Assembly: GCA_947499555.1 (NCBI GenBank)
Contig: CANMOU010000002.1
Location: 259,001-323,000 of the forward strand
From: an uncultured Roseovarius sp.
GTDB lineage: Bacteria; Pseudomonadota; Alphaproteobacteria; Rhodobacterales; Rhodobacteraceae
Reading direction: 5' to 3'
DNA length: 64,000 bases
The notes beneath the pieces are model-generated. The model had not been told where the DNA came from, ran no database searches, and saw only the letters and a list, made by a program, of their open reading frames with translations. Made by a program: the position numbers and the translations under genes. Shown piece after piece: positions 57,200-61,185 of this stretch (position 1 is its first letter; each line of letters starts with the position of its first letter).

Positions 57200-57243
57200 A
57201 CCGACGCGATACCGACGTAATACCGACGCGATACCGACGTGAC
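57200..57243. repeat. Four tandem 11-bp repeats (ACCGACGYRAT)
   Basis: Four head-to-tail units follow each other without spacers: ACCGACGCGAT, ACCGACGTAAT, ACCGACGCGAT, ACCGACGTGAC. Units 1 and 3 are identical. The 11-bp period equals about one helical turn, so the copies face the same side of the DNA. They lie in a gene-free stretch between the pspA-yiaA terminator and the transposon. Confidence 0.9.
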
Positions 57244-57366: not shown

Positions 57367-57374
57367 CAAAAACC
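57367..57374. repeat. Target-site duplication, left copy (CAAAAACC)
   Basis: These 8 bases directly before the left end of the transposon are repeated exactly at 61178-61185 directly after its right end. IS1-family transposition commonly duplicates 8 or 9 target bases. Confidence 0.92.
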
Positions 57375-57394
57375 GGTAGTGTCTCACTCTGAAA
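57375..57394 (+). repeat. Left terminal inverted repeat of the IS1-type transposon
   Basis: The sequence GGTAGTGTCTCACTCTGAAA matches the reverse complement of 61158-61177 at 19 of 20 positions; only base 15 differs (C versus T). Confidence 0.93.
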
Positions 57395-57435
57395 TGGGCA
57401 AATTCTAGAATTTTCGCTCTTTAACACCCATGTTA

Positions 57436-57451
57436 TGCTTAGCGACAAGCA
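57436..57451. promoter_or_regulatory. Shared operator-like motif upstream of cargo operon
   Basis: TGCTTAGCGACAAGCA is an imperfect palindrome (TGCTT-N6-AAGCA), 15 bases before the first cargo gene and overlapping a -10-like TATGCT at 57434-57439. The same 14-base core appears inverted at 59623-59636 before the transposase gene. It is a likely binding site for the element's own XRE protein. Confidence 0.6.
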
Positions 57452-57466
57452 ACAGAGGAGCAAAAT

Positions 57467-57640
57467 ATGGGCTTAGAGAAGAATCAGATGATTGAAGCCG
57501 AAGAGGCGCGATACAATGCTGCAAAGCAAAGAGGGTGCAGATGTGTGTATTGCCACGGCGTCATTCCTTTTGGTGAAGAAGTCGCTGGACATTCGGATGT
57601 CTGCGGACATTGCCACAATACAGTCACTAAGGAAGACTAA
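57467..57640 (+). CDS. Small zinc-ribbon-like protein
   Basis: The protein has 57 residues. Cysteine pairs CRCVYCHG near residue 24 and VCGHCHN near residue 46 give four or five cysteines and several histidines, fitting a zinc ribbon. The N-terminal third is helical and charged. AGGAG lies 7 bases before the ATG. The stop overlaps the next start as TAATG, so the two are coupled. It is the first gene of the cargo operon. No specific function is recognised; small zinc ribbons often bind nucleic acid or protein. Confidence 0.75.
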   Translation: MGLEKNQMIEAEEARYNAAKQRGCRCVYCHGVIPFGEEVAGHSDVCGHCHNTVTKED

Positions 57641-57870
57641 TGCCTAAGGGCCCCAAAGGCGAAAAAAGACCCGCTGACGTGATCGGCAATGCTGTGAAGA
57701 TAGCGCAGATCGCAACGGGTGAAATTGAAGATGATGCCGAGGATGATGGCAAAGACCCAGCCGCAAAGGCTCTTGGGTCTAAGGGTGGGAAAGCTCGGGC
57801 GAAGAAGTTAACGCCCGAACAAAGATCAGAGATTGCCAAAAAGGCCGCAAAAAAACGCTGGTCGGAATAA
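57640..57870 (+). CDS. Small basic protein (GGKARA...KKRW type), function unknown
   Basis: The protein has 76 residues. It starts PKGPKGEKRPADVIGNAVKI, has an acidic middle (EIEDDAEDDGKD) and a lysine-rich end SKGGKARAKKLTPEQRSEIA followed by KKAAKKRW. Proteins of this pattern are widespread in alphaproteobacteria as hypothetical or RNA-binding-like proteins, and the SKGGKARA...KKRW end resembles nucleic-acid-binding tails. It is translationally coupled to the zinc-ribbon gene within the transposon. Confidence 0.75.
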   Translation: MPKGPKGEKRPADVIGNAVKIAQIATGEIEDDAEDDGKDPAAKALGSKGGKARAKKLTPEQRSEIAKKAAKKRWSE

Positions 57871-57950
57871 TTTCAGGAATATTTTTCTTCACTTTTGTCG
57901 TGCCACGGTTTATCCTTGGAAATAAGGATTCAAAAACCACAGGCACACTA

Positions 57951-58502
57951 ATGGAAACCGAAATCGAAGAAATTATGGGGCGGATTGAGGGGTACCTTGA
58001 TCCGTTCGACGCGATACTCCGGCATGGCCACGATGTATATGAAAGCTATCCGGCTGAGATCGTGATCGAACACGATGCCAGCGCTCAGGCGCACTGCACT
58101 CATCGACATATTTTGGCGGAAGCCCAGCGTCGCTTCGATGCCGACAACAATGCCAGGCATTTCGAAATTCGCGGCTTAAACGTGTGGCTTCTTGAGCGGG
58201 AAAACGTGATCGTTCGGTTTAAAAAAACTGACTGGAATGGCGTAGCCGCAAACTACCCGACCAGACAAGCGCTTGACTTCGACAGAGGCAATGCGCTTCC
58301 GGGGTTGCCCGAAGAACCAACTCGATTGAATGTCGGATACCTTCTTGATGATCTTGGCGTCGGCTATGAAAGATCTCAAGTTGCGCTACCTGCTGGCAAG
58401 TCAACGATGTGGTGCGCAGCAATTGTTGCATCTGAGGATAGGGAAATCGGCCAGCCGATTTGGCAGGACGTTACTCGGGAACCGCGTTTGAGCGCGGTCT
58501 AA
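57951..58502 (+). CDS. Uncharacterised partner of the XRE-ImmA/IrrE peptidase
   Basis: The protein has 183 residues and I do not recognise a named domain. Visible features are an acidic helical N-terminus (METEIEEIMGRIEGYLDP), a central beta-rich part (VWLLERENVIVRFKKTDWNG; NYPTRQALDFD) and a C-terminal segment PTRLNVGYLLDDLG followed by KSTMWCAAIV. Proteins with the VRFKK...NYPT...LNVGY...WC pattern are, from memory, regularly encoded directly before ImmA/IrrE peptidase genes. The stop is 4 bases before the peptidase start, so they act as one module, perhaps toxin-antitoxin-like. The ATG at 57951 has only a weak AGG; a GTG at 57900 is the alternative. Confidence 0.75.
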   Translation: METEIEEIMGRIEGYLDPFDAILRHGHDVYESYPAEIVIEHDASAQAHCTHRHILAEAQRRFDADNNARHFEIRGLNVWLLERENVIVRFKKTDWNGVAANYPTRQALDFDRGNALPGLPEEPTRLNVGYLLDDLGVGYERSQVALPAGKSTMWCAAIVASEDREIGQPIWQDVTREPRLSAV

Positions 58503-58506
58503 ACCA

Positions 58507-59613
58507 ATGCACACAGAAAAGGTTTTTAATCGCCACATGATGGCGCTCGCCAGGGATTCCGAGGGTGATACCCAGACCGACTTGGCAAGAAAAATGCGGG
58601 TTCAACAGGGTACAATCTCCAAGTATGAATCTGGTTTGCTCGACCCACCAGAAGAATTTGTTGAACTGCTCGCAAAAGAACTCGGCTTTGAAAGCGAGTT
58701 CTTTTATCAGACTGGTCGCCCTTATGGGATGCCGCCGTTTCACTACCGACGCAGGAAGAAGCTTGGGGTCAAAGCGCTCTCCAAGATGATCGCAGAAATG
58801 AATATTCGAAGGATTCATCTGTCAGTTCTTCTTCGGTCATATGACGAACAAAGCAATCGCTACATCCCTGAAATTGATAGAGACGCTTATAGGGGTGGCT
58901 ATGGGCGTGAGTTCACAGTTGAAGATGCAGCTCGCCAAATTCGCGAACAATGGATGGTCCCTGATGGGCCTATTGAAAACGTAGTTGATCTTTTGGAAGA
59001 GAATGGCGGAATTGTCGTTCCTTGCAACTTTGAGAGCGACCTTATCGACGCCGTAAGCCAGAGGGTGGATGGCCTGCCTGTTTTGTTCTTTGTCAACATG
59101 GCTGCGCCGGCTGACCGCATCCGGTATTCCTTGTGTCACGAACTCGGGCACATGGTTCTCCACACAACATCGCTCTTAGACGAAGAGGAAATGGAAGCTG
59201 AGGCGGATAGGTTTGCCGCAGCTTTCTTGCTGCCAGCCCAAGAGTTTCGACGGCAGTTGAAAAAATTCGACTTGCGCCAAGTCGCGCACATGAAGCGCTA
59301 TTGGAAAGTATCCATGCAGGCGATTGCTATGCGGGCCTTCCATATGAAATTAATCACGCCTTACCAAAGGAAGATGTTTTTCATTCAGATGGGAAAACAC
59401 AACTATCGCAAATCGGAACCATACGAACCGCCAAAGGAAGTGCCCAGCAAGATAGCCAGAATGGTGTCCTATTTCCGTAGAAAGCTTGGTTATTCTACTG
59501 CTGAAATTGCGACGGCTCTGGGAGTGTCCACCGCTACCTTCGAACGCATGTATGCATTTGCTGACAACGGGTTTTCTGATCCAGGAAAATCGCACTTACG
59601 CGTAATAAAATGA
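58507..59613 (+). CDS. XRE-family regulator with ImmA/IrrE metallo-endopeptidase domain
   Basis: The protein has 368 residues. An XRE helix-turn-helix covers about residues 8-62 (DTQTDLARKMRVQQGTISKY). The ImmA/IrrE zinc peptidase covers about 120-260, with HELGH at 211-215 and the downstream acidic ligand region EAEADRFAAAFLLP near 230. A second HTH-like stretch lies near residues 320-350 (RKLGYSTAEIATALGVSTAT). ImmA cleaves the repressor of ICEBs1 and IrrE-type proteins cleave DNA-damage repressors; here repressor and protease are one polypeptide. It forms an operon with the 183-residue protein, within the transposon. Confidence 0.9.
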   Translation: MHTEKVFNRHMMALARDSEGDTQTDLARKMRVQQGTISKYESGLLDPPEEFVELLAKELGFESEFFYQTGRPYGMPPFHYRRRKKLGVKALSKMIAEMNIRRIHLSVLLRSYDEQSNRYIPEIDRDAYRGGYGREFTVEDAARQIREQWMVPDGPIENVVDLLEENGGIVVPCNFESDLIDAVSQRVDGLPVLFFVNMAAPADRIRYSLCHELGHMVLHTTSLLDEEEMEAEADRFAAAFLLPAQEFRRQLKKFDLRQVAHMKRYWKVSMQAIAMRAFHMKLITPYQRKMFFIQMGKHNYRKSEPYEPPKEVPSKIARMVSYFRRKLGYSTAEIATALGVSTATFERMYAFADNGFSDPGKSHLRVIK

Positions 59614-59622
59614 ACATTTGAC

Positions 59623-59636
59623 CTTGTCGCTAAGCA
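59623..59636. promoter_or_regulatory. Shared operator-like motif upstream of transposase gene
   Basis: CTTGTCGCTAAGCA is the exact reverse complement of the 14-base core at 57436-57449. It lies between the XRE-ImmA stop and the transposase start, immediately after a -35-like TTGACC (59618-59623), where a bound repressor would block transposase transcription. Confidence 0.6.
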
Positions 59637-59657
59637 AAAAGTTCATATATGGAGGGT

Positions 59658-60554
59658 ATGAGACAATTGCCCACAGAAAAACGCGCCTTGATCCTCCGGC
59701 TTCTTGTTGAAGGAAACTCAATGCGGGCAACGTCTCGCATCGCCGATGTGTCAATCAATACCGTCACCAAGCTCTTGGTGGACGCTGGCAACGCTTGCGC
59801 CGCCTACCACGATGAAACGGTGCGAAATGTGAAGGCTGGCCGCATCGAATGCGATGAAATCTGGTCCTTCTGGTACGCAAAAGCAAAGAACGTCGAGAAA
59901 GCCAAGGCTGCCCCTAAAGGCGCTGGTGACGTATGGACATGGACCGCCATTGATGCCGACAGCAAGATGATCCTGGCTTATGAGATTGGCGACCGCTCAG
60001 CAGAAACCGCATATGACTTCATGCTCAATCTGAGCCGCCGCGTGGAGGGTCACTTTCAACTGACTACTGACGGATTGGGCGCTTACCTTGAGCCGGTTGA
60101 AGAAGTGTTTGGTGGTCAGATCGACTATGCCCAACTCGTAAAGCAATACGGTGAACCAAAAGGCGCGGCCAAACATGAACGCAAGTATTCCCCTGCCGTT
60201 TGCACCGGCACAAAGAAACGGACGATAAGCGGGTCGCCAGTAGAGGAATTTGTCAGCACATCTTATGTGGAGCGTCAAAACCTATCTATGCGCATGGGGA
60301 TGCGTCGGTTCACACGCCTGACCAATGCATTCAGTAAGAAGCTGCAAAATCACCTGTACATGCTGAGCCTGTACTTTGTGCACTATAACTTCGTGCGCAT
60401 TCACAAAACACTCAAAGTTACCCCTGCAATGGCGGCGGGTGTTAGTGACACGCTGCACGACATGGAGTGGATTGTTGGGCTAATTGATGCGCGCGCAACT
60501 AAACCGAAGCGGCCTAAGACATACAAAAAAGGCAAATTGACACGGAAACAGTAA
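59658..60554 (+). CDS. IS1 family transposase (DDE)
   Basis: The protein has 298 residues in one frame. An N-terminal HTH (RATSRIADVSINTVTKLLVD) binds ends; the catalytic triad is visible as Asp66 in RIECDEIWSFWYAKAK, Asp138 in LTTDGLGAYL and Glu205 in SYVERQNLSMRM followed by GMRRFTRLTNAFSKKL. That last segment is typical of single-ORF IS1 relatives. All catalytic residues are intact. GGAGG lies 2 bases before the chosen ATG; an ATG at 59649 is the alternative. The gene sits between cargo modules, not at an element end. Confidence 0.92.
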   Translation: MRQLPTEKRALILRLLVEGNSMRATSRIADVSINTVTKLLVDAGNACAAYHDETVRNVKAGRIECDEIWSFWYAKAKNVEKAKAAPKGAGDVWTWTAIDADSKMILAYEIGDRSAETAYDFMLNLSRRVEGHFQLTTDGLGAYLEPVEEVFGGQIDYAQLVKQYGEPKGAAKHERKYSPAVCTGTKKRTISGSPVEEFVSTSYVERQNLSMRMGMRRFTRLTNAFSKKLQNHLYMLSLYFVHYNFVRIHKTLKVTPAMAAGVSDTLHDMEWIVGLIDARATKPKRPKTYKKGKLTRKQ

Positions 60555-60652
60555 TTCCACGATCTGCGGATTGACGCGATTCCGTGGTCATGGGTATCTT
60601 GCATTCAATTATACATGCTTTAAATGCATGAGGGCAGTGTCTGGAGGGTACT

Positions 60653-60928
60653 ATGAACGACGAACGGCTTATCGAGCTTCGTTTGGACGAAGAGAATGGA
60701 TGCTATTTGGTATCCAGTGATCAATTTCCTTTGCTGAATCTTGTCATTTCCGACAACAGCGTTGCGGAAATCGAAAAATCTGTTTTGCCAGTTCTGAAGG
60801 AAATGGTTGAGTTCCGTGTGCAGGAACCAGTCGAATTGCGCGTTGTAAGCCCATTCGATGGGCGTCCAGGTCAAATGCCACTACCACATGTAATTGCAAG
60901 TCGGACTAAAGTTACTCACGTTGCATGA
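60653..60928 (+). CDS. Small protein, HicB-like (putative antitoxin)
   Basis: The protein has 91 residues. The beginning RLIELRLDEENGCYLVSSDQ and the region NSVAEIEKSVLPVLKEMVEF follow the beta-beta-beta-helix layout of HicB/DUF1902-type partial RNase-H folds. There is no DNA-binding tail. GGAGG lies 6 bases before the ATG, a strong start. It overlaps a second small frame. Assignment as an antitoxin is an inference from shape and from the HicA-like neighbour. Confidence 0.6.
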   Translation: MNDERLIELRLDEENGCYLVSSDQFPLLNLVISDNSVAEIEKSVLPVLKEMVEFRVQEPVELRVVSPFDGRPGQMPLPHVIASRTKVTHVA

Positions 60929-61142
60929 CATTGAACCAGAAGACGCCGCAAAATTCCTAGTTGGATTTGGATATGCGGTGCGCGAAGACGTATCAGAGTA
61001 CTCGCATGGTTATGGCCAGTGGTGGGATTCCGCTACTGGCGGGCCCCTATTTGTCCCTTGGAATAAATCCAACGAAAAAGTGGCGGGGGTCCCGTTCACG
61101 CGTCTTTTGAACGTCCTTTATCGTGACGGAACCGTCTGTTAA
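60894..61142 (+). CDS. Small protein, HicA-like (putative toxin), non-ATG start
   Basis: The frame encodes up to 82 residues. DIEPEDAAKFLVGFGYAVRE, the Ser-His pair in EYSHGYGQWWD, and PLFVPWNKSNEKVAGVPFTR ahead of LLNVLYRDG line up with the HicA pattern (helix, G-S-H, strand, hydrophobic V-P, G-T-L-R-x-I-L). No ATG is available: candidate starts are TTG at 60894 or TTG at 60921, both inside the end of the preceding gene, so translational coupling or frameshifting is needed. The family call is tentative. Confidence 0.5.
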   Translation: MQVGLKLLTLHDIEPEDAAKFLVGFGYAVREDVSEYSHGYGQWWDSATGGPLFVPWNKSNEKVAGVPFTRLLNVLYRDGTVC

Positions 61143-61157
61143 TCGCAAAAAAAGTGT

Positions 61158-61177
61158 TTTCAAAGTGAGACACTACC
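61158..61177 (-). repeat. Right terminal inverted repeat of the IS1-type transposon
   Basis: Read on the minus strand this gives GGTAGTGTCTCACTTTGAAA, differing from the left end at one position. Confidence 0.93.
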
Positions 61178-61185
61178 CAAAAACC
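61178..61185. repeat. Target-site duplication, right copy (CAAAAACC)
   Basis: An exact copy of 57367-57374, directly outside the right end of the transposon. Confidence 0.92.

Follow-up and report, generated by a model that had tools for sequence, protein, structure and literature searches.

Introduction

Elements of the IS1 family of insertion sequences (IS) carry terminal inverted repeats some 20 bp in length, with target duplications of 8–9 bp on either side. The classical IS1 encodes its transposase in two overlapping frames, insA and insB, with a -1 frameshift, and InsA represses its own expression. Single open reading frame (ORF) members of up to several kb (the ISMhu11 group) are also recorded in ISfinder. 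Here, we describe an element located at positions 57375–61177 of a 64,000-nucleotide stretch of DNA (the window, by which we mean this stretch at its full length) from an uncultured Roseovarius sp. The element measures 3803 bp including its inverted ends and shows the 20-bp ends and the 8-bp duplication of the IS1 family. Probably, it is an IS1-related cargo transposon with a frame of its own and three exchangeable slots, the second of which holds a gene pair resembling the RosmerTA system.

With IS1, the window element shares a DDE domain of the PF03400 type, an invariant D/D/E triad, ends starting with GGT and the 8-bp duplication. It differs in being 3.8 kb long and carrying cargo, whereas IS1 is minimal, and in having a transposase of one ORF, a gene for a small basic protein (KGG) and paired palindromes where IS1 has insA/insB.

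Three other groups of described systems come close. Transporter IS (tIS) are a recognised class (PMC7986276, PMC3129680) of IS with passenger genes unrelated to transposition inside the IS ends. Passenger genes likewise lie within the ends of the window element. The first-pass annotation of this DNA had announced a new kind of transposon, which was overstated, since with the tIS class known, cargo as such does not make a new kind. Nevertheless, the term tIS is linked to IS1595, whereas the window transposase is of the IS1 type, and in the IS1-type family nearly every collected member has cargo, which changes quickly. Transposons of the Tn3 family carry toxin-antitoxin pairs as passengers (PMC7157771), and so resemble our element; they belong to another transposon family, and in our case ATPases, ClpP-like proteases, P63C proteins and a methylase-HNH protein are found among the cargo as well. 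Finally, RosmerTA (RmrT-RmrA) is presented as an anti-phage defence system combining diverse toxins with an ImmA-domain antitoxin (PMC10440598). As in RosmerTA, the window element has an RmrA-type protein with a helix-turn-helix and an ImmA protease, encoded directly behind a small partner gene; unlike in the described systems, the partner falls outside the PADLOC RmrT models and the pair rides on an IS1-type transposon. Neither the IS1-type family nor its KGG gene and cargo slots were found described in the literature that we could search, which comprised neither ISfinder nor most subscription journals.

Boundaries and Insertion Site

The left end of the element (57375–57394, forward strand, GGTAGTGTCTCACTCTGAAA) and its right end (61158–61177, reverse strand) are inverted repeats identical in 19 of 20 positions; the commonest form of the end in the family is GGTAGTGTCTCAGTTTGAAA. 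The same 8 bp, CAAAAACC, stand immediately outside both ends (57367–57374 and 61178–61185). Between them lies a single open transposase frame on the forward strand (59649–60554), beginning with ATG at 59649, while the family start is the ATG at 59658. Counted from the latter, D66, D138 and E205 are invariant in 12 aligned sequences (the window and 11 relatives). The first-pass annotation had read the ends, the exact duplication and the intact DDE triad as those of a complete, gene-carrying IS1-type element far larger than classical IS1, and all of this was borne out.

The transposase scored 29.6 bits against PF03400 (DDE_Tnp_IS1; cut-off 24.1) and 68.7 bits against NF033558, the NCBIfam IS1 equivalog, which is under the cut-off of 100 for that model. 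An IS1595/ISXO2-type DDE domain was absent among the eight Pfam matches obtained at E-values up to 1. Since the transposase forms one frame and lacks the two-frame insA/insB organisation, we class it with the IS1-related single-ORF group, not with classical IS1. Judging by the NF033558 score, the window element appears to be an IS1 relative and not a canonical IS1. A distant relative of the transposase (31%), unannotated, was noticed at 174791–175666 of the Brevundimonas phage vB_BpoS-Gurke (ON529850.1), the sole one among 50,697 phage records.

The element is inserted upstream of an HU gene, which lies to its right and was matched in 84 of 85 genomes of the genus. We joined the flanks of the window element and compared them with the 30 loci returned, namely the host's own and those of 29 relatives. 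The alignment crosses the flank junction in 14 of these relatives, beginning at least 15 bases to its left; at the occupied site of the host, it begins only nine bases to the left, i.e., the duplication and one more base. Poor conservation of the left intergenic stretch limits how far the alignments of the relatives reach leftward. In two of them (L131 and L132), a left-hand YiaA-like gene is also kept, only about 0.25 kb from the junction; the insert is therefore absent there. Close relatives thus have the HU-upstream site without the insert, and the search for empty sites that the first-pass annotation had proposed came out in favour of its reading. Just beyond the left end, at 57200–57240 of the window, there is also a short direct repeat, ACCGACGCGATACCGACGT, in three copies with 11-bp spacing.

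A Family with a Shared Frame and Rapidly Changing Cargo

The transposase found matches in 29 of 195 relatives, and a scan of named genomes gave more than 500 loci, the best 80 of which were kept. A script located paired ends with an 8-bp duplication in 11 of 17 relative regions and, at threshold, in 59 of the 80 named loci, the other 21 being without any. After mononucleotide shuffling (one shuffle per locus), an end pair of any kind appeared in two of 80, both under the threshold. One named locus (L068, 9.1 kb) was set aside, leaving 58, and five of the 11 relative regions belonged to genomes already among these. Overall, the collection comprises 65 distinct elements that have paired ends, namely the one in the window, those of the 58 named loci and six from further relatives. 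Relatives thus have boundaries of the same kind with other 8-bp duplications; their absence would have spoken against the first-pass reading, which therefore passed this check too. The duplication is exact in 63 of the 65, and all but one measure 2.05–4.1 kb; the exception, L126, has 1085 bp and no comparable cargo.

According to the titles of the records, the elements come mostly from Alphaproteobacteria, with some from Nitrospirales, Omnitrophota, Acidobacteriaceae, Gammaproteobacteria, Nitrosomonas and Desulfarculus, although single taxon labels may be wrong, because many of the records are metagenome-assembled. The elements also reside on plasmids: 25 plasmid records had a match, and all three that were inspected showed ends and exact duplications.

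Common to the family is a frame consisting of the left end, the small basic KGG gene and the transposase gene towards the right end. The transposase is present in all 65 elements, and KGG was detected by tblastn in 62. In these 62, KGG starts 47–751 bp from the left end and is separated from the transposase by 719–2127 bp, and more than 200 bp lie to the right of the transposase in 28. Three slots lie between the parts of the frame: before KGG (slot 1), between KGG and the transposase (slot 2) and behind the transposase (slot 3).

The contents of these slots were compared in 186 ordered pairs (93 unordered, from 42 elements) with transposases at least 75% identical. The central cargo of slot 2 was common at the DNA level in only two of the 186 pairs. 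At KGG, similarity rises from a fraction of 0.07 of pairs 20 bp upstream to 0.64 at the first base, and 10 bases past the KGG stop it is down to 0.04. It recovers towards the transposase, being 0.03 at a distance of 80 bp, 0.26 at 50 bp and 0.98 at the start. Similarity between related elements thus ends at the edges of the modules. The stretch of slot 1 is seldom common to related elements; blast coverage of the left end is low as well (0.27 of pairs), that stretch being short. Kinship of cargo at the protein level is compatible with such turnover of DNA: L077 and L086 both seem to encode P63C proteins, identified in L086 by the scan and in L077 by eye together with the Pfam tally.

The window element itself is a mosaic in this sense. 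Its transposase shares 78% identity with that of L049, an element with a Bro-N/PDC-S13 protein as cargo; its RmrA-like protein, on the other hand, is 75% identical to that of a genome from another genus (G353), the transposases of the two being 63% identical. On one Nitrospirales chromosome (OX638327.1), we also observed two elements, L083 and L089, with transposases 89% identical and central DNA that is not shared; this pair is well suited to the study of cargo exchange.

The RmrA-like Pair of the Window Element

Slot 2 of the window element holds two genes on the forward strand. The second (58507–59613) encodes a 368-amino-acid protein with an XRE helix-turn-helix and an ImmA/IrrE (M78) metallopeptidase (Pfam HTH_3 and Peptidase_M78, the latter with an HELGH motif), the combination that characterises the RmrA antitoxin. 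Over residues 7–347, it matches the PADLOC RmrA model PDLC03949 with an E-value of 1.4e-60. The first gene (57951–58502, with an alternative GTG start at 57900) encodes a 183-amino-acid candidate toxin and directly precedes the RmrA-like gene, which is the place expected for RmrT. A homologue in L095 is 53% identical. Matches to this protein were found in eight other genomes of the family-wide sample of 295, and in seven of the eight (L183–L189, not L190) an RmrA homologue comes right after the match. The same pair (61–69% and 75% identical, respectively) occurs in one of these seven, G353, together with the KGG and the transposase of the family, over two contigs.

The RmrA-like pair is interchangeable cargo of the transposon and probably not its regulator; it is predicted to be a toxin-antitoxin pair that acts against phages. 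The IS1-type platform is one carrier of RmrA among others.

KGG, Palindromes and the Possible Control of Transposition

In the window, KGG (57640–57870, forward strand) encodes a small, basic protein of 76 amino acids, a core product of the family and its candidate regulator. Its AlphaFold2 model consists of three helices (pLDDT 79, pTM 0.38). In a Mesorhizobium plasmid copy, the small gene at the place of KGG is annotated as 'histone H1'. Within the genus, the transposase is matched strongly (E < 1e-40) in nine genomes, all of which also match KGG (E 1e-35 to 3e-10).

A palindromic site with arms free of mismatches, TATGCTTAGCGACAAGCAAC, lies at 57434–57453, just ahead of the first gene, and is a putative operator. 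A second site (59623–59639) is an inverted copy of 57433–57449 in 16 of 17 positions and falls within the putative promoter region of the transposase (59614–59657, forward strand). In the relatives, the transposase-side site starts about 38 bp ahead of the start codon, with the approximate consensus TGCTTGAC..TAAGCA..AAAGTTCA.ATA. With the strict pattern TGCTT-N5..7-AAGCA, we counted left sites in 31 of the 65 elements and sites before the transposase in 33, against 30 in 568 kb of flanks; from the flanking host DNA, about 0.008 left sites would be expected per such region. The palindromes thus keep fixed places in many relatives.

The distribution of the sites follows the subtype of KGG. In subtype A, both the left and the transposase-side palindrome are present in 31 of 40 elements; in subtypes B and C together, the left one is found in 0 of 22 and the other in two. 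Strict sites are lacking altogether in four of the 40 elements of subtype A, 11 of the 13 of B, all nine of C and all three without KGG. In partial Mantel tests, palindrome presence is associated with KGG given the transposase (r 0.32, p 0.0005) and not with the transposase given KGG (r -0.03, p 0.80). Because the left site adjoins KGG, linkage may explain part of its association; the transposase-side site is the cleaner test.

Which protein would act at these sites? One might suppose that the palindromes are bound by the transposase, which would repress its own synthesis in the manner of InsA, with KGG otherwise employed, e.g., as a nucleoid-like accessory factor in transposition. IS1 provides a precedent, and the putative promoter of the transposase is overlapped by the palindrome. 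We nevertheless consider this scenario unlikely: given KGG, palindrome presence does not follow transposase distance, whether the whole protein or the first 70 alignment columns are used (for the transposase-side site alone, r -0.003, p 0.55), and in KGG subtype C the end sequence is identical or almost so, yet the palindrome is absent from nine of nine elements.

Alternatively, the RmrA-like XRE-protease could be the regulator, repressing the cargo operon and the transposase until its protease lifts repression in response to a stress signal, in the way that ImmR/ImmA controls a conjugative element. The first-pass annotation had likewise taken the regulator-protease module for a device of self-regulation. 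XRE and M78 protease are indeed united in one protein, the window has two inverted copies of the 17-bp site, one ahead of the first gene and the other ahead of the transposase, and the palindrome occurs in eight of eight RmrA elements of KGG subtype A. Yet RmrA-like cargo is found in only 10 of the 65 elements, 28 of the 32 subtype A elements without RmrA have palindromes too, and both RmrA elements of subtype B are without them. Since RmrA is so restricted and the palindromes occur with or without it, the regulator-protease is probably not the regulator of the transposon, and we regard this explanation as quite improbable.

As the palindromes track the subtype of KGG rather than the transposase, we favour KGG as the likelier regulator. 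In our estimation, there is about an even chance that its product binds the palindromes and thereby represses both the KGG operon and the transposase.

Such evidence induces us to propose the following scenario for the IS1-related cargo transposon. The DDE transposase, which we presume to be active, would act on the 20-bp ends, move the element and create the 8-bp target duplications. The frame comprises the left end with a promoter, the KGG gene, the transposase gene with its own promoter and the right end, and the cargo in the three slots between these parts is exchangeable. Slot 2 of the window element is occupied by the candidate toxin and the RmrA-like antitoxin in a RosmerTA-like arrangement; the pair probably shields the host from phages through release of the toxin, which would favour retention of the element. 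More tentatively, and with slightly less confidence than an even chance would merit, we suggest that these elements form an undescribed, widespread IS1-derived class serving as an exchange platform for toxin-antitoxin and anti-phage modules, in which the contents of the three slots are swapped at the module borders much faster than the frame evolves and a dedicated KGG protein, co-evolving with its palindromes, couples the expression of cargo to the control of transposition.

Several observations weigh against this scenario. The tie to IS1 is modest, with PF03400 barely over its cut-off and NF033558 under. Recent movement is evident in no copy, and the host genome (3.73 Mb, 23 contigs) yielded a single match to the entire element and likewise a single one to the transposase. 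DNA binding by KGG is unproven, because the predicted model has a pTM of only 0.38 and no fold match (no match in PDB by Foldseek, none to viral proteins at E < 4 and none to solved sequences), and six further genomes of the genus match KGG without a strong transposase match, five of them weakly or partially. As for the palindromes, the transposase-side one of the window has a degenerate half and misses the strict pattern, 27 of the 65 elements have a strict site at neither promoter, and for the transposase-side site alone the effect of KGG is small (r 0.14, p 0.001). A generic scan for sigma-70 promoters and terminators gave no signal above chance. Concerning the pair, the 183-amino-acid protein and three tested homologues match no PADLOC RmrT model, and of 17 RmrA matches in the genus (E < 1e-40), the window's alone lies in such an element, as judged from the positions of transposase matches on the contigs. 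Finally, for much of the cargo no function could be assigned.

If the scenario is true, the family represents one route by which small defence modules pass between distant bacteria, carried by a compact transposon that keeps its frame and changes its cargo. The family would also supply a search rule for new toxin-antitoxin or defence genes, namely to look at the cargo wherever GGTAGTG ends, a KGG gene and an 8-bp duplication occur together, and a concrete test of transposition control.

We had also considered that an RNA hairpin ahead of the transposase start might prevent translation by read-through. This was dropped as a general feature: one of four folded regions was clearly more stable than its shuffles (z 0.16, -2.92, -0.05 and 0.65).

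Cargo across the Family

Clustering by blastp over the 65 elements gave RmrA-type proteins in 10, Panacea-type in eight, HigA-ImmA-type in five and ClpP/SDH-like in four; a HigB-like cluster accompanies the HigA-ImmA type in four of its five elements. Cargo ORFs were further chosen by script (193, one of them with masked letters); of the remaining 192, 19 short or doubtful ones were dropped and 173 scanned, and example proteins were also scanned singly, in sets of 10. The tallies cover the 25 commonest of 28 and of 37 families with Pfam, and of 33 and of 230 with PADLOC, so that counts for rarer families are lower bounds. Among the Pfam families listed, the 173 ORFs comprise 13 M78, nine P63C, five nSTAND, four HigB, four SocA_Panacea, four SDH protease, three PemK, two Abi_2 and two Bro-N proteins, with at least one methylase-HNH protein and at least one AAA_21 protein. 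Panacea, confirmed by Pfam in L050, L070 and L118, is undercounted here, its frame having been missed in several elements of subtype C.

Among the PADLOC models listed, the commonest RmrA model was matched by 12 of the 173 cargo ORFs, PD-Lambda-2_B by eight, one RmrT model by four and PDC-S13 by two; these counts overlap, because RmrA-like and HigA-like proteins cross-match. As a control, we scanned 146 of 168 flanking ORFs, picked at random. Six PADLOC families were matched (best E-value 6.5e-19), and none of the 146 matched the RmrA, PD-Lambda-2_B, RmrT or PDC-S13 models of the cargo, so that the commonest RmrA model stands at 0 there versus 12 of 173. The family is widespread, with the same mobile frame and a cargo that differs by host and is often defence-like.

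The other cargo ORFs of the window element are small and lie on the forward strand. Slot 1 has a Cys-rich ORF of 57 amino acids (57467–57640) that overlaps the KGG start by one base and has no significant Pfam family. Slot 3 has an ORF of 91 amino acids (60653–60928), without an assigned family and present in one of the 295 genomes, its own, and a doubtful one of 82 amino acids with a TTG start (60894–61142), present in two of the 295, its own included. A reading of the two as a HicAB-type pair was dropped, as DUF1902 was matched only at E 0.19 (by the 91-amino-acid ORF) and the pair is nearly orphan. It is very improbable that a classical IS1-like element captured host neighbours just once, without any family-wide role of cargo: the almost orphan slot-3 ORFs and the known IS with passenger genes would suit such a chance assembly, but 64 of the 65 elements reach at least 2.05 kb and the 719–2127 bp gap between KGG and transposase is kept in all 62 elements with KGG.

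Some cargo proteins deserve separate mention. In nine elements (L058, L066, L072, L073, L077, L082, L086, L098 and L107), a KGG-like motif was seen by eye near the N-terminus of a cargo protein; those of L072 and L086 match P63C. It may represent a common element for binding nucleic acids or for targeting. L060 and L116 share a cargo protein of 424–430 amino acids with a start that looks proteasome-subunit-like by eye; the L060 protein, the only one of the two scanned, had no Pfam match at E-values up to 0.01.

Unusual Members and Possible Remnants

In the locus set aside from the census (L068, 5720–14843), ends and an exact 8-bp duplication lie 9.1 kb apart around a transposase of the family, possibly reflecting a much larger cargo or a nested element. 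On a short contig (G081:C62, about 803–1324), the match to KGG overlaps that to the transposase, both being on one strand; perhaps it is a deletion remnant in which the two genes were fused. The KGG of G040, which has a single right-type end at a distance of about 110 bp and lacks a transposase match, is likewise read as a remnant.

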